Positions 34,374 to 41,525 of a stretch of 64,000 nt of DNA are shown here, in pieces. The stretch spans positions 558,001 to 622,000 of the forward strand of contig NZ_JAJAQH010000006.1 in assembly GCF_020523625.1 (NCBI RefSeq), given 5' to 3'. The notes beneath the pieces were generated by a model. That model saw only the letters and a list, made by a program, of their open reading frames with translations, was not told the origin of the DNA and ran no database searches. Both the position numbers and the translations under genes were made by a program. Every line of letters begins with the position of its first letter. The stretch's first letter is position 1. This stretch comes from Methylovorus menthalis. Lineage in GTDB: Bacteria; Pseudomonadota; Gammaproteobacteria; Burkholderiales; Methylophilaceae.

Positions 34374-35434
34374 GCGAAGTCGCGACTGGCCTGGCTGTTG
34401 GCAATGCAGCGCGTCCCGAATTGGCGGCCGAAGCTGTGCAGCTGGCCATGCAAAAACTCGGAGACCGTATCCCGAATAGTGTCTTGCTGTTTTTGACGGA
34501 AGAGTTTGCGGCAGATCCGCAGCCCGCTATTCGGGCCGCCGCCGCGGCTTCCAGTTGTCTGCAGGTCATGGGCTGCTCGGCCCCCGGCATTTTTACCGAG
34601 CAGGACTGGGTGCTGGACACGCCCGCCGCCGCCGCCATGGTCTTCAGCGGCCATGTCACCATGTTGCCCAAGCCTGAAGGCGCAGGCCTGCGTATGGCGC
34701 TGACAGCGCCTAATGCCTTGAATACGGTCTGGTTGCAATCACCGGCTTCGCGCTTTGGCGGAGTCTCCGGGGATGCTACGGGGCAAGGGCCTTTTTCAGT
34801 GTGGCAGCATGCCAAGGGTACCCCAGTGGGGCATTGCGAAGCTGCGTTTCGTGGGGTCAATGCTGCGGTGCTGGTTTCTCATGGCTTGCGAATACTGACA
34901 TCCATCCAAACGATTGATGCTGCCAGCGATTACGATCTCTTGCAGTTAAATGCGCAACCAGCATTGCCGATGTTTCATATGTCATTCCCAGATACAGCTC
35001 CCTCATCTCATCTGCTGATGGCGATGGTGGCCGACAGCGAAGCGCGTTTGCTGGCAGGGGATTTTCAACTGGCGGGTATCGTCTCGGAAAATGCGGCACA
35101 GCAATCGCTGACATTGACCAAGTTGTTACGTCCCGGCCAGGTTGTATGTTGGGGCGTACGGGCTGCAGATGCCGCCGAAGCCGAGCTGCATGGCCTGATT
35201 GCCAATCAGCTTGCCATGTGGAATCGATCACCGGCCTTTGGCCTGTTTTTCAGCTGCCTGGGACGGGGGCCTTACCTGTATAACGGCATGGATAGGGATC
35301 TGGACGCATTGCGCCTGCTATGCCCGGGCATGCCCCTGATCGGGTTTTATGGCAATGGCGAAATTGCACCGCATGGACAGGGCAGTGAGTTGCTCGAATA
35401 TTCGGCCGTACTCGGCCTGTTTGCCAAGGATTAA
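34370..35434 (+). CDS. FIST-domain signal protein
   Basis: A 354-aa protein with FIST N and C domains, a sensory module thought to bind small ligands such as amino acids. VATGLAVGNAARPELAAEAV starts the FIST-N region; LLFLTEEFAADPQPAIRAAAAAS and VMGCSAPGIFTEQDWVLDTPAAAAMVF follow. The FIST-C half ends with FGLFFSCLGRGPYLYNGMDRDLDALR and PLIGFYGNGEIAPHG, which is the family signature. The TTG at 34370 overlaps the nth stop (TTGA) and follows AAGGA, so translation is probably coupled. No attached kinase, cyclase or methyl-accepting domain. Confidence 0.85.
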   Translation: MSEVATGLAVGNAARPELAAEAVQLAMQKLGDRIPNSVLLFLTEEFAADPQPAIRAAAAASSCLQVMGCSAPGIFTEQDWVLDTPAAAAMVFSGHVTMLPKPEGAGLRMALTAPNALNTVWLQSPASRFGGVSGDATGQGPFSVWQHAKGTPVGHCEAAFRGVNAAVLVSHGLRILTSIQTIDAASDYDLLQLNAQPALPMFHMSFPDTAPSSHLLMAMVADSEARLLAGDFQLAGIVSENAAQQSLTLTKLLRPGQVVCWGVRAADAAEAELHGLIANQLAMWNRSPAFGLFFSCLGRGPYLYNGMDRDLDALRLLCPGMPLIGFYGNGEIAPHGQGSELLEYSAVLGLFAKD

Positions 35435-35436
35435 CG

Positions 35437-35877
35437 ATGGCACTATTTAACCCATCCCGCGATGAAGTCCGGCGATTCTTTTTCGATAGCTGGGCTAAAT
35501 ATCGCCAGCAGGCAGCGTTGACGCCTCTAGAGGCGTTGGCTCTGCAGGTGATGCAGTTGCATCCGGAGTACCATGCGGTGCTGGATGCGCCCGAGCGCTA
35601 TCTGGAGCAGGCGTATTTTCCCGAAATGGGCGAAACCAACCCTTTCCTGCACATGAGTTTGCATCTATCGGTACTGGAGCAACTCTCCATCGACCAGCCA
35701 CCCGGCATACGCCAGGCATATGACACGCTCAGGCAGCGTCACGGCAATGAAATGGATGCCCAGCACGACTTGATGGATTGCCTGGCAGAAACTATCTGGC
35801 GGGCCCAGCGTGATCAGCAGCCGCCAGATGGCATGGCCTATATCGCCTGTTTTCAGGCCAAGGCACGGGCCGACTGA
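35437..35877 (+). CDS. DUF1841 family protein
   Basis: A 146-aa soluble protein of the DUF1841 family, widely conserved in beta- and gammaproteobacteria. Family features are FNPSRDEVRRFFFDSWAKY (residues about 4-22), QVMQLHPEYHAVLDAPERYLEQ, GETNPFLHMSLHLSVLEQLSIDQPPGI and a C-terminal DCLAETIWRAQRD. The LHxE and HMxxH-like histidines suggest a helical metal-binding or hydrolase-like fold, but no activity is known. It starts two bases after the FIST gene stop, so it is in the same operon as rsxB-nth-FIST. Confidence 0.85.
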   Translation: MALFNPSRDEVRRFFFDSWAKYRQQAALTPLEALALQVMQLHPEYHAVLDAPERYLEQAYFPEMGETNPFLHMSLHLSVLEQLSIDQPPGIRQAYDTLRQRHGNEMDAQHDLMDCLAETIWRAQRDQQPPDGMAYIACFQAKARAD

Positions 35878-35911
35878 GCATAGTCAAGGCGATTGCCCGG
35901 TAAAAGCTTGA

Positions 35912-36319
35912 TTACTGACATTCCTTGCTGCTGACGAACTTCGCCATTTCAGTTACCTGCGTCTGCACGGCCAAGGCAAGCGCCTTGCGATCCACATTGC
36001 CCACCCAGTATTTGTCGCACTTGATGATCAGACCGCCTTCTTTGGCAGGTTTGCCTTTCTGCATGTGAATAAAGGCTGGTGCCGTGGCATTGGTTTTGTC
36101 CGGACCGCCGCCAACAAAAATGCCAATCTTGAATTTTTTATCCAGAGATGGGGTAGAAGCCGGGGCATTTTCAAAGCCGTTGCTAATCAACTGGCTTAGC
36201 TGGCTGTCGGTAAATGTGCTGGTGTTATTGTCAAAATACCAGGCAAACTCTCCTGCGTGGGCCCATGTGGCGCCTGCAGTCAGCAGGCAGGATAGGGCAA
36301 GTGTATAGCGCGTTTTCAA
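35912..36319 (-). CDS. Secreted protein of unknown function
   Basis: Not recognised. From TTG 36319 it is a 135-aa protein with a good signal peptide (KTRYTLALSCLLTAGATWAHA) and a predicted mature N-terminus GEFAWYFDNN. An AGGAAA ribosome site lies six bases before the TTG; the longer frame upstream would run into the divergent sigma-factor gene. The mature part has two cysteines (IIKCDKYWVG and SSKECQ), possibly a disulfide. It is divergent from the ECF sigma gene, so it may belong to its regulon, though nothing in the sequence proves this. Confidence 0.6.
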   Translation of the reverse strand: MKTRYTLALSCLLTAGATWAHAGEFAWYFDNNTSTFTDSQLSQLISNGFENAPASTPSLDKKFKIGIFVGGGPDKTNATAPAFIHMQKGKPAKEGGLIIKCDKYWVGNVDRKALALAVQTQVTEMAKFVSSKECQ

Positions 36320-36466
36320 AACGTGTTTCCTGTATGGGCATGGTTCATGAACAAGTGCCATGGGCACCTCGTCGAGGTTATCAGACCAAAGCGGAATTGC
36401 AATGGCCCGATTGGCTAGGTGACTGGGGCCATGGTGTGGACCCTGCATTTCGTGATTGAATAGCGC

Positions 36467-37030
36467 ATGAAAAACGCAGACCCCCATGCCTGGCTTACCG
36501 AACACGGTGACTATCTTTACCGCTTCGCCCTGGCGCGCCTGCGCGATAGCCATCAGGCCGAAGATGTCGTGCAGGAGACGCTACTGGCCGCCATGCAAAG
36601 CGCCACCTATGCCGGGCAGTCTGCGCCGCGCACCTGGCTCGTGGGCATACTCAAGCACAAGATCGTCGACCTGATTCGCAAGCAAATGCGCGAGCAGCCC
36701 ACGGAGGGTCTGGGGGAAGAGCTTCCGGATGAGCCGGGCATGGATGCGTTTTTTGACGAAGATAATCGTCACTGGAATGACAAACCACACAGTTTTGGTA
36801 TGCCGGAAAACAGCCTGGAGCAAAAGCAGTTTTTGACGATATTGCAGGACTGCATGGATCGTTTGCCCAAAAAACTGGCCGCGCTTTTCATGCTGCGCGA
36901 AGTGCAGGAGGAAGAAAACGAAATAATTTGTAAGGAACTGGATATTAGCTCGACCAATGCTTGGGTGATGTTGTATCGCGCCCGAATGGGATTACGCAAA
37001 TGTCTGGAATTGCATTGGCTGGGGCGCTAG
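36467..37030 (+). CDS. ECF RNA polymerase sigma factor of an HvfABC-type locus
   Basis: Extracytoplasmic-function sigma factor of 187 aa. Region 2 (about residues 12-75) shows YLYRFALARLRDSHQAEDVVQETLLAAM and TWLVGILKHKIVDLIRK. Region 4 (about residues 125-185) shows DRLPKKLAALFMLREVQEEENEIICKELDISSTNAWVMLYRARMGLRKCL, an ECF helix-turn-helix. The GMDAFFDEDNRHWNDKP linker is characteristic of the ECF type associated with zinc-finger partners. The following gene is its probable anti-sigma factor, and the metallophore genes start about 400 bases further, so it probably drives them in response to a metal or redox signal. Confidence 0.9.
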   Translation: MKNADPHAWLTEHGDYLYRFALARLRDSHQAEDVVQETLLAAMQSATYAGQSAPRTWLVGILKHKIVDLIRKQMREQPTEGLGEELPDEPGMDAFFDEDNRHWNDKPHSFGMPENSLEQKQFLTILQDCMDRLPKKLAALFMLREVQEEENEIICKELDISSTNAWVMLYRARMGLRKCLELHWLGR

Positions 37031-37074
37031 ATGATCGGCGCTCGTGACCTGGATATAGGAAAGGGAGGAACGGA

Positions 37075-37326
37075 ATGCTGAGTTGCAAACAAGCCAGCAG
37101 GCTGTTGTCCCAGTCGCTGGACAGGCGCCTGACGTGGCGTGAACGAACTGCGCTGCGGTTGCATTTGACCATATGCGATGTTTGCAGGCGTTTTGGGCGG
37201 CAGTTGTTATTGCTGCGTGAAGCTGCCAAGCGCATGGTCAGGCTGACCGAGCAGAACGAGCAGTTGCAATTATCCCAGGAGGCAAAGGCGCGCATTGCCA
37301 GTGCCCTTGATCTTGACCGTCATTAA
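37075..37326 (+). CDS. Zinc-finger anti-sigma protein (zf-HC2 type)
   Basis: An 83-aa protein with the H-x3-C-x2-C zinc-binding anti-sigma motif HLTICDVC (about residues 30-37), plus an upstream cysteine in LSCKQASRLLSQSLDR that completes the site. No membrane segment follows: the remainder is a basic helix (RRFGRQLLLLREAAKRM) and a Glu/Gln-rich tail, so it is a soluble, cytosolic anti-sigma of the ZAS type. Metal or thiol oxidation would release the sigma factor. It starts 44 bases after the sigma gene with GGAGG before ATG. Confidence 0.85.
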   Translation: MLSCKQASRLLSQSLDRRLTWRERTALRLHLTICDVCRRFGRQLLLLREAAKRMVRLTEQNEQLQLSQEAKARIASALDLDRH

Positions 37327-37444
37327 ATTCGTATCTGGGATTCATCTCTGGATAAATGACGTACATAAGCATGGGACTGGTGATGTTCACTGAGTTGAGC
37401 TATTCATAACGTGAGCTATCCATTTAAATTTTAGGAGAAATAAA

Positions 37445-37777
37445 ATGAACACTTCCAAGAAAACGCTGAGCCTGATGGTAGGTACTGCATTCGTAGCTTC
37501 TGTTGCGGCTGCCAATGTCCATGCTGCTGAAAACCCGTTTGCCATGAAGACCTTGTCTTCTGGCTACATGGTGGCTGAGGCTGACAAGATGAAAGACGGC
37601 AAGTGTGGCACGGGCAAGTGCAGTGCTGAAATGAAAGCCAAGATGGCCAAGGAAGGCTCATGCAGCGCCGATAAAAAAGCCGAGGGTTCCTGCAGCGCCG
37701 ACAAGAAAGCCAAAGAGGGTTCTTGCAGCGGAGACATGAAGTCCAAGGAAGGTTCCTGCCACGCTGACAAGAAGTAA
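37445..37777 (+). CDS. hvfA: HvfA-like Cys-rich precursor peptide with EGSC repeats
   Basis: A 110-aa exported precursor. Signal peptide about residues 1-27 (cleaved after VHA). The stretch NPFAMKTLSSGYMVAEADK is typical of HvfA/bufferin precursors. Cys at 54, 59, 73, 83, 94 and 105; the first two lie in DGKCGTGKC, like the known EGKCG motif, and the last four lie in EGSC at 70-73, 80-83, 91-94 and 102-105, separated by SADKK-type linkers. Known relatives are modified on the Cys by the DUF692 enzyme (oxazolone-thioamide or thiooxazole) and bind copper. TAGGAGAAATAAA precedes the ATG. hvfB starts two bases after its stop. Confidence 0.85.
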   Translation: MNTSKKTLSLMVGTAFVASVAAANVHAAENPFAMKTLSSGYMVAEADKMKDGKCGTGKCSAEMKAKMAKEGSCSADKKAEGSCSADKKAKEGSCSGDMKSKEGSCHADKK

Positions 37778-37778
37778 T

Positions 37779-38681
37779 ATGGGTCAGGCGCAATCGCATC
37801 ATCCCATCAAGGGTGCTGGTCTTGGCCTCAAGCGCGAGCTGTTGCCCCAGATTCAGGCTGCTTACGGCACTAGCCTGACAGCGCACCTTGATTTTGTTGA
37901 GATTGCGCCTGAAAACTGGATAGGCGCCGGTGGCAAATATGCAAAACAATTGGCTTGGTTCACCGAGCGTTATCCTATCGTTTGTCATGGACTGTGCCTG
38001 TCGCTGGGTGGCCCCGATCCACTCAACGAAGATTTTTTGCGTCAGGTAAAGCAGTTTCTCGATCAGCACCAGATTCCGCTTTATACCGAACATTTGAGCT
38101 ATTGCTCGGATGGCGGCTATTTATACGACCTGCTGCCCATCCCGTTTACCGAAGAGGCGGTGCATCATGTGGCCCGCCGTATCCGTCGTACGCAAGAGAT
38201 TCTGGAACGGCGCATTGCGGTCGAAAATGCGTCTTTTTATGTGGCGTCGCCCATCGCCGAGATGGACGAGGCCAGTTTCATCCGCGCCGTACTGCAAGAG
38301 GCGGACTGCGATTTGCACCTTGATATCAATAATATCTACGTCAATAGTGTCAATTTTGGGTTTGATCCGCATGCTTTTCTGCGTGAGATGCCGGGCGAAC
38401 GTATCGTCTATGCGCATATCGCCGGGCATGATCACGAGACTGAAGACCTGATCATTGATACGCATGGGCAAGATGTGATTGACCCTGTCTGGCAGTTGCT
38501 GCGCGAAGCCTATGAACTGTTTGGCGTTTTCCCAACATTGCTGGAGCGCGATACCAATATTCCTCCGCTGGCGGATGCCATGCATGAGGTGAATAAAATT
38601 GCCGGGCTGCAAGCTGCGCAGCAAGGTATTGCCAGACAACAGCCAGCGGATGCCGTTAGCCGCAAACGAGCGTCCGCATGA
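37779..38681 (+). CDS. hvfB: DUF692 multinuclear non-haem iron enzyme (HvfB/BufB)
   Basis: TIM-barrel MNIO-family enzyme of 300 aa that modifies Cys in the adjacent precursor using iron. Family segments: GAGLGLKRELLPQI; LDFVEIAPENWIG (metal-ligand region about residue 40-52); VCHGLCLSLGGPDPL with the conserved His; YTEHLSYCSDGGYLYDLLPIPF; IAVENASFYVASP; LHLDINNIYVNSVNFGFD; and AHIAGHDHE. These carry the His, Glu, Asp and Asn ligands of the di- or tri-iron site. At 300 aa the length is normal. It follows hvfA by one base and overlaps hvfC by four, indicating translational coupling. Confidence 0.92.
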   Translation: MGQAQSHHPIKGAGLGLKRELLPQIQAAYGTSLTAHLDFVEIAPENWIGAGGKYAKQLAWFTERYPIVCHGLCLSLGGPDPLNEDFLRQVKQFLDQHQIPLYTEHLSYCSDGGYLYDLLPIPFTEEAVHHVARRIRRTQEILERRIAVENASFYVASPIAEMDEASFIRAVLQEADCDLHLDINNIYVNSVNFGFDPHAFLREMPGERIVYAHIAGHDHETEDLIIDTHGQDVIDPVWQLLREAYELFGVFPTLLERDTNIPPLADAMHEVNKIAGLQAAQQGIARQQPADAVSRKRASA

Positions 38682-39433
38682 GCGGCGCCGATACCGATTT
38701 GCCCTTGTTTCAGCAATACCAGCTGGCGTTTACCGCGCATATTCGCCATCCACGTCTGCATGCCCGTCCAGAGGGCGTGCCTGCCAAGCGCATGCGTGTT
38801 TACAACGAGATTGTATTTAATAACCTGCAGTCAGCCGTTGGCGCCTGTTACCCGGTATTGCAGCGGGTATTGGGCAAGCGCGCCTGGCAGGCACTGTTGC
38901 GCCGGTTTTTTGCCGAGCACCAGGCTAACAGTCCTTTTTTTCGCGATATCCCCAAGGCTTTTCTGGCGTTTCTGCCACAGGTAGAAACGTTGCCGCCTTA
39001 TGCCGTCAGTCTCGCGCATTATGAATGGGTAGAGCTGGCGATTGCCTCGGCTGATACGGTGACACCAATGCTGACTGCGGAAGGCGATCTTGTGCAGGGC
39101 ATCCCTATCGTGGCACCTGCGTTGGCGGTGCTGGCTTACGACTATCCAGTGCAGAAGATTTCAGTCCGCTTCAAACCGCGACAGGCCTTGGCTGAGCCTG
39201 TGCACCTGCTGGTTTTTCGCAACCAGCAGGATGAGGTGAAGTTTGTCGAGATGAATGCCATGACGGCGCGCCTGCTGGAGCTGCTGCAGCCTGGGGAGTT
39301 GACGGGGCTCGCAGCCTTGCAACAGTTGGGCATGGAGATGGGGCATGCCGATAGCACTTCCCTGATTACCTTTGGAGCGGCACTGCTGGAGGACTTGCGT
39401 CAGCAGGATATCGTCTGGGGTGTCGCTGTCTGA
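38678..39433 (+). CDS. hvfC: DUF2063 partner protein (HvfC/BufC)
   Basis: A 251-aa protein of the DUF2063 family, the recognition partner that delivers the precursor to the DUF692 enzyme. The N-terminal domain (about residues 8-105) has FQQYQLAFTAHIRHP, the NEIVFNNLQSAVGACYPVLQRVLG segment and FRDIPKAFLAFL. The C-terminal RRE-like part (about residues 125-251) follows. ATG overlaps the hvfB stop (ATGA), so the two are translated together. No DoxX-family hvfD gene follows; the next gene is on the other strand. Confidence 0.9.
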   Translation: MSGADTDLPLFQQYQLAFTAHIRHPRLHARPEGVPAKRMRVYNEIVFNNLQSAVGACYPVLQRVLGKRAWQALLRRFFAEHQANSPFFRDIPKAFLAFLPQVETLPPYAVSLAHYEWVELAIASADTVTPMLTAEGDLVQGIPIVAPALAVLAYDYPVQKISVRFKPRQALAEPVHLLVFRNQQDEVKFVEMNAMTARLLELLQPGELTGLAALQQLGMEMGHADSTSLITFGAALLEDLRQQDIVWGVAV

Positions 39434-39489
39434 GCAGGGAATATGTTGGTATCAGGCCTGACGCATCCTGAACTGATCGGAAGGCCTGA

Positions 39490-39849
39490 TTACCCTGGCA
39501 GATCCGTCACACTGTAAATTGTCCAGTGCTGGCTTCCTGCGCGGGTGATGGAGCAACCCAGGCTTGCGCTGGGGTGTTCGCGGTCAAGCACATGTTTGGT
39601 ATGGTCTGCCGTCTGCTTGTCCAGATACCAGCGATCTACCCAGACCACTTTGGCGGTTTGCGGCTGCGTATTGGTCAGTGTGATCAACTTGCCGTCATTC
39701 ACGGCGCAGTCTGCGTCGTCCACCTCGATTAACCGTACTTCTGATGATTGGGCTGCTGGTTCGGTGGCAGTGTTGTCTGCTTGCGCCAGCAAGGCTTGCA
39801 GCAGAAAAACGGCGAGTGTGGTTGAGATCAATCGTAATGGGTGTTTCAC
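39490..39849 (-). CDS. Secreted hypothetical protein
   Basis: Not recognised. A 119-aa protein with a signal peptide (KHPLRLISTTLAVFLLQALLAQA), cleaved about residue 24, then a mature part rich in short strands with two cysteines (DDADCAV and SLGCSIT) probably forming a disulfide. LITLTNTQPQTAKVVWVDRWYLDKQTADH suggests an Ig- or beta-sandwich-like fold. It is convergent with hvfC and 17 bases downstream of nadB on the same strand, so it might be cotranscribed with nadB rather than belong to the hvf system. Confidence 0.55.
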   Translation of the reverse strand: MKHPLRLISTTLAVFLLQALLAQADNTATEPAAQSSEVRLIEVDDADCAVNDGKLITLTNTQPQTAKVVWVDRWYLDKQTADHTKHVLDREHPSASLGCSITRAGSQHWTIYSVTDLPG

Positions 39850-39866
39850 AAGCAGGCTTCCGTACT

Positions 39867-41525
39867 TTAGTGTGCTGCCTTGCTGCGGCGCACCGGTTTT
39901 TTCAATGTCGCCACACCGTGATGGCCATGATGGCGATCCAGCAGGCTGTAATAATTGGATGGCGTCAGCACGGTAGGAATGGCATCCGGCAGCATCTCAG
40001 GGTAATCCTTGCTGTAGTGCAGGCCGCGACTCTCCTGCCGTTCCATGGCGCTATTCACGATCAGCTCCGCCACCTGCAGCAGGTTGCGCAGCTCAATCAG
40101 ATTGTTGCTGATGCGGAAATTGCTATAAAACTCGTGTACTTCATCGCGCAGCAAATGAATGCGGTGCAGGGCGCGCGTCAGGCGCTTATTGGTCCGTACG
40201 ATGCCTACATAGTTCCACATGGTGCGCCGTAGCTCGCTCCAGTTGTGGGTGATGATGATTTCTTCGTCGGCATCGGTCACGCGGCTTTCATCCCAATAGG
40301 GCAGTTTGACCGGGCGTTTGTTCGGCTTGGCCAGAATATCCTGCGCAGCGGCCTGGCCGAACACCAGACATTCCAGCAGCGAGTTGCTGGCCAGGCGGTT
40401 GGCGCCATGCAGGCCGGTACAGGCGGTTTCGCCAATCGCATATAGCCGTGGAATATCGGTGCGGCCGATGTGGTCGGTCATGACGCCGCCACAGCTATAG
40501 TGGGCGGCCGGTACCACTGGGATGGGCTCGCGCGTGATGTCGATACCCAGCTCCATGCAGCGGCGATAAATGGTAGGGAAATGCGACAGTACAAAATCGG
40601 CCGGCTGGTGCGAGATATCCAGATACACGCAATCAATGCCGCGCTTTTTCATTTCAAAGTCAATCGCGCGGGCGACGACATCGCGTGGCGCCAGTTCGCC
40701 ACGCGGGTCATGTTCGAGCATGAAGCGGGTGCCATCGGGCAACAGCAGGCGGCCACCTTCGCCGCGCACGGCTTCCGTGATCAGAAATGACTTGGCCTGC
40801 GGATGATACAAACAGGTTGGGTGGAATTGAATAAATTCCATGTTGGCTACGCGGCAGCCAGCGCGCCATGCCATGGCAATACCGTCGCCAGTGGCTACGT
40901 CAGGGTTGGTCGTGTAGAGGTAAACCTTGCCCGCGCCGCCCGTGGCCAGCACGGTATTCTGGGCGGCAATGGTGAGTACCTTGCCGCTCTGGTTATCCAG
41001 CACATAGGCCCCCAAGCACTCTGCGCCTTCGATCTTCACCTTGCGGGCCGTGATGAGGTCTACCGCGATATGGTCTTCCAGCAGGGTGATGTTGGGATGG
41101 TTGCGGACTTTCTCGGCCAGGGTTTTTTGTACTGCATGCCCGGTGGCATCGGCTGCGTGAATGATGCGACGGTGACTATGACCACCTTCGCGCGTCAGGT
41201 GAAAGCCGCTATCGTCATCCTCGCGGGTAAACGGCACGCCTTCGTCGATCAGCCATTGCACGGTTTCGCGGCCATGCTCGGCTACCAGGCGAGTAACCTC
41301 GGCATCGCATAATCCGGCTCCCGCAATCAAGGTATCCTGAATGTGGGCTTCAATGGAATCATCGTCTGTCAGCACGGCAGCAATGCCGCCTTGAGCCCAG
41401 TTGCTGGAACTATCATTGATGCTTCGTTTGCTGACCAGACATACTTTTTTGTCTGCTGCCACTTTCAAAGCCAGGGTAAGACCCGCCAGCCCGCTACCAA
41501 TGATTAATACATCAAATTGCTGCAT
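39867..41525 (-). CDS. nadB: L-aspartate oxidase
   Basis: FAD enzyme that oxidises L-aspartate to iminoaspartate in NAD synthesis. [13 protein letters not shown] is the FAD-binding GxGxxG (about residues 4-16), [11 protein letters not shown] near residue 42 and [22 protein letters not shown] carry catalytic residues. [25 protein letters not shown] (about residues 345-370) is the C-terminal FAD motif, and [16 protein letters not shown] follows. Length 552 aa is normal. Transcribed away from rpoE. The C-terminal tail is basic (PVRRSKAAH). NadA and NadC are not here. Confidence 0.95.

Follow-up and report, generated by a model that had tools for sequence, protein, structure and literature searches.

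Control of hvf-type gene clusters by an extracytoplasmic function (ECF) sigma factor and a zinc-binding anti-sigma factor (ZAS) is already known from Neisseria and Haemophilus. In Neisseria meningitidis, the operon NMB2140-NMB2145 consists of doxX, three hvf-type genes, rpoE and the anti-sigma gene mseR, in this order and behind one promoter upstream of rpoE; Cys4, Cys34 and Cys37 of MseR matter for its activity, the consensus of sigmaE is GTMAGBWTT, a spacer of 12-13 and CGTCTAAH, with transcription starting six bases downstream, and sigmaE is described as not responding to H2O2, diamide or singlet oxygen (PMC2893595, PMC3240639). In Haemophilus influenzae, RpoE2/HrsE, with a small anti-sigma factor, controls the hvf/doxX cluster, msrAB and mtsZ and is induced by hypochlorite; RpoE2 has little effect on the region upstream of its own gene (PMC7907618). 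The locus analysed here belongs to the methanol-using bacterium Methylovorus menthalis (Methylophilaceae, order Burkholderiales) and lies in a stretch of 64,000 nucleotides (contig NZ_JAJAQH010000006.1, positions 558,001 to 622,000), hereafter the window. It is a cluster of five genes on one strand encoding an ECF sigma factor, its anti-sigma factor, an HvfA-like precursor peptide, the maturase HvfB of the multinuclear non-heme iron-dependent oxidase (MNIO, DUF692) family and its partner HvfC (Table 1). Judged by sequence similarity, the cluster is HvfABC-type, of an already known kind; a promoter-like site within the sigma gene itself looks new, given that a limited search of the open literature found no published account of a sigma promoter inside its own gene.

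The window resembles the Neisseria operon in combining hvf-type genes with an ECF sigma factor and a ZAS protein with the Cys4/His30/Cys34/Cys37 arrangement, in its predicted promoter consensus, and in the presence of methionine sulfoxide reductase genes behind the same type of promoter (msrPQ in this genome, msrA and msrB in relatives). Unlike in Neisseria, the sigma and anti-sigma genes come first, doxX is located elsewhere and the site lies inside the sigma gene. Haemophilus RpoE2 shares with the window the tie between hvf-type genes and an ECF sigma factor with a small anti-sigma factor, but there the hvf cluster is apart from the sigma gene. The gigPABT cluster of Cupriavidus metallidurans with rpoQ-rsqA, which is induced by copper and gold and for which sigma control is described as unproven (PMC10304878), is likewise an MNIO cluster next to an ECF sigma and anti-sigma pair; in contrast to the window, its genes are divergent, the anti-sigma factor is predicted to be membrane-bound and DoxX is present. 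The sigV promoter of Caulobacter, located inside cabp (PMC13171946), is another ECF-related promoter embedded in a coding sequence, with an EF-hand protein in the circuit, but there the sigma gene is the target and the promoter sits in the gene preceding it, whereas the site in the window is part of the sigma gene itself and would act on the genes that follow. Finally, a survey of such clusters (PMC12452194) reports sigma genes in Buf1 but not in Buf2 clusters and describes EGKCG clusters as comprising a ribosomally synthesized and post-translationally modified peptide (RiPP), MNIO, DUF2063 and DoxX, a few of them with oxidored_molybd and ferric reductase domains, which fits the msrPQ association.

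The reading favoured here, to which we assign a probability of about 0.75, is that the HvfABC (oxazolin/captophorin-type) metallophore cluster is under the control of a Neisseria-sigmaE-type ECF sigma factor and a zinc-Cys anti-sigma factor, through a promoter inside the sigma gene. Comparative analysis establishes which genes are present and in what order, that they are conserved, that the in-gene site is conserved as well, and that site and sigma factor go together across genomes; from these features we infer that the site drives the anti-sigma-hvfABC unit. The first-pass annotation had proposed that the sigma pair senses copper or thiol stress and switches on the cluster. A conserved sigmaE-type site upstream of the anti-sigma gene and hvfABC backs control by the pair, the support coming from sequence; as to the stress, the related systems respond to different agents (hypochlorite in Haemophilus, copper and gold in Cupriavidus).

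The two blocks of the site, GTAAGG (36930-36935) and CGACCAA (36951-36957), fall within the codons for the Sigma70_r4_2 domain (sigma residues 125-173 in Pfam) and are close to the Neisseria consensus, which can be restated as GTAAGG-N15/16-CGTCTAA; from the Neisseria spacing, the start of transcription is predicted near 36964. A position weight matrix (PWM) built from 27 sites of 21 loci gives the in-gene site as the best match of the window on both strands (22.3 bits, against 10.9 for the next). Between the anti-sigma gene and hvfA, as well as 5' of the sigma gene, neither the PWM nor a GTAAGG-type search identifies a site; in the latter region, the output of a word and dyad search came mostly from the coding sequence of the preceding gene. 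At the same codons, a score of at least 20 bits is obtained in 49 of the 51 family loci that have a sigma gene, the exceptions (L053 and L090) being broken genes.

Matches inside sigma genes (L049, L059, G059, G111) were at first regarded as a coding coincidence, a view overturned by codon tests, for the first of which 104 of 127 sigma genes were kept after removal of identical 3' ends. All 82 hvf-type sigma genes use TGT at codon 155, where 36.3 would be expected from the same loci, and all 80 with Lys at codon 156 use AAG (31.6 expected); the two columns rank fourth and third by z among 78 conserved columns, below L62 (CTC) and R177 (AGA). A single third base in all 82 genes is found in 8 of 180 columns, namely the Trp/Met columns 57, 103, 166, 174 and 184 plus 155, 156 and 162; the invariant bases of the last three belong to the site (T and G in TGTAAG, G in CGAC). 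All 79 genes that have both blocks show a spacer of 15 and NCG at codon 162. A protein search of the order added 65 sigma genes from 30 further families, and these agree: TGT at codon 155 in 61 of 64 (71 of 229 for other Cys), AAG at codon 156 for 46 of 46 Lys (268 of 497 elsewhere), and third base G at codon 162 for 59 of 63 Ser/Ala/Thr/Pro (1021 of 3071 elsewhere), with GTAAG-N16-CGAC present in 40 of the 65. The full site is kept also in 8 of 18 sigma genes without hvfB seen downstream, and in one genome (G007, locus L059) the sigma gene contains in-frame stops, yet the site is perfect, with CGACTAA.

Table 1. Genes and sites of the sigma-hvfABC system (window positions unless a locus is named)
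Feature	Position	Strand	Basis
ECF sigma factor gene, Neisseria-sigmaE-like (TIGR02943 family), 187 aa	36467..37030	+	Pfam, NCBIfam, family alignment
Promoter-like site TGTAAGG-N15-CGACCAA (putative), sigma codons 155-164	36929..36957	+	PWM, frozen synonymous bases, Neisseria consensus
Anti-sigma gene, zf-HC2/ZAS, 83 aa, Cys4-His30-Cys34-Cys37	37075..37326	+	Pfam, NCBIfam, alignment
hvfA-like precursor, 110 aa, 6 Cys	37445..37777	+	NCBIfam below cut-offs, family homologues
hvfB, MNIO (DUF692) maturase, 300 aa	37779..38681	+	Pfam, NCBIfam
hvfC, DUF2063/RiPP recognition element (RRE) partner protein, 251 aa	38678..39433	+	Pfam, NCBIfam
msrP-msrQ-hvfX, in this order	L179:4877-7028; G000:C7 near 1019400-1021500	- (L179)	sigmaE-type sites before msrP and before hvfX

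Under this reading, the anti-sigma factor would hold the sigma factor and release it once the Cys/zinc centre of the anti-sigma factor becomes oxidised or loses its metal; the freed sigma factor would read the promoter within its own gene, in the codons of the region 4 helix-turn-helix, and a transcript from near 36964 would carry the anti-sigma gene and hvfABC, while distant units behind the same promoter (msrPQ, hvfX and an EF-hand protein gene) would be transcribed together with the cluster. Since the promoter lies 3' of the sigma start codon, the sigma factor would boost its anti-sigma factor and the effectors but not itself, a negative feedback unlike the arrangement in the Neisseria operon. 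It seems quite probable that this is a general property of the sigma family, whose members would carry their own target promoter in their own coding sequence (the region 4 helix-turn-helix codons), kept across many families of the order by frozen synonymous bases, so that the anti-sigma gene and its followers (here hvfABC) are induced and the sigma gene is left out, as in a built-in negative-feedback switch; the same sigma factor would join production of copper peptides (hvfABC, hvfX, bufA2) with periplasmic methionine sulfoxide repair (msrPQ, msrA, msrB) where these genes are far apart. The reading explains how a cluster that begins with the sigma gene can still be under that sigma factor, and it suggests that a promoter read by the sigma protein can be written into synonymous positions of its gene.

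The same type of site is found outside the sigma gene. In the 2.92-Mb source genome, the pattern GTAAGG-N13..17-CGNCTAA has three sites, all N15-CGACTAA and within 8.4 kb (the reversed control pattern has 2); these three extragenic sites precede msrP (TGTAAGG-N15-CGACTAA), hvfX and the gene of a secreted EF-hand protein. In relatives, hand-picked sites precede genes for msrP, hvfX, MsrA, MsrB, a BufA2 bufferin, DUF1223, EF-hand proteins and cytochrome b561. The 20 regions examined were chosen by hand from a larger set of sites, some for a nearby second MNIO gene, and the list therefore gives examples rather than a census; msrP and hvfX were named by eye in relatives and by NCBIfam in the source genome. 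The location of MsrP, MsrA and MsrB behind the site may point to periplasmic oxidants as the inducer, and the peptides may point to copper, or both could act together. The favoured reading gives a means of tracing the regulon of a widespread ECF group by sequence and connects copper-peptide clusters with periplasmic oxidant repair.

The association between site and sigma factor extends across genomes, with the reservation that kinship inflates any p value from such tests. Among Methylophilaceae, 39 of the 67 genomes with the sigma factor and 4 of the 53 without it have an extragenic site, the four in-gene matches being left out, and three of the 4 sigma-negative genomes with a site are 72-89% complete. 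In the order, a stricter pattern identifies extragenic sites in 29 of 153 sigma-positive genomes (42 sites) and in 2 of 246 sigma-negative ones (2 sites); the reversed control gives 7 and 10 sites, respectively, and this flat distribution speaks against an effect of genome size or composition. Altogether, 13 of the 57 sites in the order test lie within the sigma gene (one, in G401, counted so by assumption, sigma coordinates not being used), and at least 11 extragenic sites lie no more than 2.5 kb from it.

Some of the loci with sites were seen beside second MNIO clusters. In several relatives (L226, L227, L234, L235 and others), the precursor of the second MNIO locus stands behind the same site; the one in L227 is BufA2 according to NF050166, and L226 has a DUF1223 gene that is oriented towards the second MNIO cluster and is itself preceded by another such site. 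An EF-hand protein encoded behind a site (L185:7315-7794) weakly resembles lanmodulin (48.7 bits, cut-off 135), which is of interest in methylotrophs.

The first-pass annotation had also stated that the DoxX gene is absent. This holds for the cluster itself, within or next to which no HvfX/DoxX gene is found (a DoxX gene immediately follows hvfC in 5 of 61 loci), but not for the genome, which has four DoxX genes. One of these resembles the DoxX genes that follow hvfC in relatives and belongs to the HvfX family (NF050144, 134.5 bits, cut-off 80); it shares the contig with the cluster, at a distance of about 420 kb, and lies directly downstream of msrP and msrQ (NCBIfam). As hvfX lies elsewhere behind the same promoter type, DoxX is not missing altogether.

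The gene order is conserved in Methylophilaceae, as the comparison of cluster layouts suggested by the first-pass annotation bears out. HvfB matches (E<=1e-40) are present in 76 of 120 family genomes; among 60 loci fetched of the 67 strongest HvfB loci in other genomes, 50 have a sigma match directly upstream of the hvf genes (3 of them broken sigma genes), and the other 10 comprise 4 cut by contig ends and 6 that have hvf genes without an adjoining sigma gene. Conversely, the sigma profile matches (E<=1e-25) in 67 of 120 family genomes; among the 80 named sigma loci, 58 are followed by an hvfB match (in 2 cases a fragment only), and contig ends truncate some of the remainder. A search of the open literature for papers on Methylophilaceae with DUF692 found none.

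Several observations weigh against control through the in-gene promoter. The -10 block in the window, CGACCAA, is one base off the extragenic CGACTAA; among sigma-positive genomes, the patterns used detect no extragenic site in 28 of the 67 from the family and in 124 of the 153 from the order; a looser pattern in the family test yields 77 sites against 43 for the reversed control in sigma-positive genomes and 8 against 18 in sigma-negative ones; and the full site is missing in 25 of the 65 sigma genes of the order sample and in 10 of the 18 sigma genes without hvfB seen downstream. Directly upstream of hvfA there is no site, the gap from the anti-sigma gene being 118 bp. The genome contains 14 Sigma70_r2 genes, so that another ECF sigma factor could read the sites, and the preference for one codon at L62 and at R177 equals or exceeds that at the site, so that some codon freezing has another cause. 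The promoter role of the site is itself deduced from nucleotide patterns.

One alternative, although unlikely, is that some other factor, for instance a copper sensor, reads a separate promoter of hvfABC in the 118-bp gap, and that the in-gene site serves the anti-sigma gene alone, the sigma pair being real. This would agree with the size of the gap, which is 24 to 110 bp in most relatives, with the retention of the site bases in sigma genes outside the family even without hvfB seen downstream, and with the six family loci that keep hvf genes without sigma; it is opposed by the empty PWM search of the gap, by the lack of a strong terminator between the anti-sigma gene and hvfA (one weak candidate, 37133-37157, lies inside the anti-sigma gene) and by the sigma control of the hvf clusters of Neisseria and Haemophilus. 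It appears quite improbable that a different ECF sigma factor of the genome reads the sites and that the cluster's own has another motif: co-occurrence of motif and sigma factor is no proof of recognition, and candidates are at hand among the 14 genes, but the motif is close to the published consensus of a sigma factor whose anti-sigma factor shares the Cys/His positions, and order-level sites concentrate in or near the sigma gene, as noted above. Equally hard to credit is the idea that the in-gene site is no promoter and its codons are frozen by mRNA structure, translation or antisense RNA, the likeness being coincidental, for which the unexplained bias at L62 and R177 could be invoked, given that the frozen third bases match both blocks of an independently derived motif with a constant spacer of 15 in 79 of 79 genes, recur in 30 other families and persist in G007 despite the in-frame stops.

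The family assignments of the encoded proteins agree with the initial description of the cluster, including its coordinates, strand and order. The sigma protein matches Sigma70_r2 (57.1 bits) and Sigma70_r4_2 (37.9 bits) in Pfam and TIGR02943 in NCBIfam (201.1, cut-off 162.2). The anti-sigma protein matches zf-HC2 (35.0, cut-off 22.2) and NF052368, antisigmaE (73, cut-off 50); its Cys4, His30, Cys34 and Cys37 are invariant in 15 of 15 aligned sequences and occupy the same positions as in MseR. For HvfB and HvfC, the two families named in advance are both found, PF05114 with 351.3 bits and PF09836 with 90.1 bits, the latter together with NGO1945_C (95.3), and the NCBIfam cut-offs are passed (NF003818, 412.7, cut-off 360; NF050145, 268.9, cut-off 142). 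A sequence search against solved structures identifies 3bww for HvfB and 3dee for HvfC, and gives no match for the anti-sigma protein. The source genome contains one PF05114 gene, one HvfA-like gene (E<=1) and one zf-HC2 gene (E<=0.01).

The precursor required a less direct assignment. It remains under the cut-offs of both HvfA models in NCBIfam (16.8, cut-off 19.5; 17.5, cut-off 95), but aligns over its length with family homologues, all 16 aligned members of which match both models at E<=0.01 (best 1.3e-20); it is called HvfA-like because its homology runs through family members only. It has a Sec-type signal peptide, judged by eye. As no match to the DUF2282 or BufA2 models was obtained in Pfam or NCBIfam up to E 1, the precursor is placed, by sequence similarity, in the HvfA/EGKCG (oxazolin, captophorin) branch, and the earlier label "bufferin-type" is too loose. 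Captophorins comprise the fontiphorin (fon), oxazolin (hvf) and gonophorin (ngo) clusters (PMC13097082), with which the window shares HvfABC-type genes and a precursor with repeated (E/D)GxC motifs. Unlike in captophorins, most Cys in the window precursor are followed by Ser or His (Cys+1 is G, S, S, S, S, H), and the position of FonB Phe250 is occupied by Thr. Ser or His, not Gly, after five of six Cys is a new feature.

By analogy with these systems, HvfB and HvfC would oxidise the precursor Cys to a copper-binding group, possibly 5-thiooxazole, and the exported peptide would bind periplasmic copper under oxidant or copper stress. Across the 329 Cys of 58 family precursors that carry an NPF motif, the following residue (Cys+1) is Gly 175 times, Ser 105 times and His 28 times, and Cys-2 is Gly in 317 of 329 (L078, without NPF, was left out, two loci lack hvfA and 3 loci were labelled neither type). 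At least 8 changes between Gly-type and Ser-type cores are required on a quick HvfB tree in which many branches are weak. The residue equivalent to FonB Phe250, located by means of the ERD-x-N context, is Phe in just one of the 61 HvfB proteins aligned, with the preceding Asp kept, and by itself this position fails to separate Cys-Gly from Cys-Ser precursors; the HvfB columns that best track the Cys+1 type (220, 37 and 168) come from just 4 independent supported pairs.

It is rather doubtful that only the Cys-Gly site is processed, the Cys-Ser and Cys-His sites being plain thiols and most precursor Cys unmodified. In vitro, FonBC tolerated among double variants Ala alone in place of Gly after Cys (position five; PMC13097082), and Gly follows only about half of the family Cys counted above, both in line with partial modification; however, a motif with Cys-Tyr was modified once by FonBC (PMC13097082), HvfBC are intact and conserved next to Cys-Ser/Cys-His precursors, Gly at Cys-2 is nearly always kept, and the Thr found here and the rarity of Phe in HvfB at the Phe250 position are what an altered pocket would predict. 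The altered residue after Cys together with the altered pocket residue amounts to a natural experiment on which Cys becomes modified.

A few further features of the locus were recorded. Sigma codons 56-64 (window 36632-36658) form a second frozen stretch, besides codon 177: hvf-type sigma genes use CTC for L62 in 56 of 81 cases (8.9 expected) and AGA for R177 in 39 of 79 (8.2 expected), and CTC stands for L62 in 45 of 65 sigma genes of the order sample. An Rfam search of 35000-40500 yielded nothing up to E 1, and a scan of 35500-40500 for Sigma70-like promoters found 1 against 3.2 expected. Between the gene at 35437-35877 and the sigma gene, there is an open frame (35912-36553, minus strand) with no Pfam or NCBIfam family match; unlike in the window, the upstream gene adjoins the sigma gene almost directly in most relatives viewed. 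Just 5' of the sigma start codon lies an element RTG-NTT-SAA-T(AG/AA/GA) (36452-36463), readable as a three-codon open frame. Its core TGNTTSAAT occurs 5' of the sigma gene in 23 of 48 family loci, compared with a mean of 0.38 and a maximum of 3 in shuffles (related genomes being counted uncorrected), and the base preceding TG is A or G in all 23.

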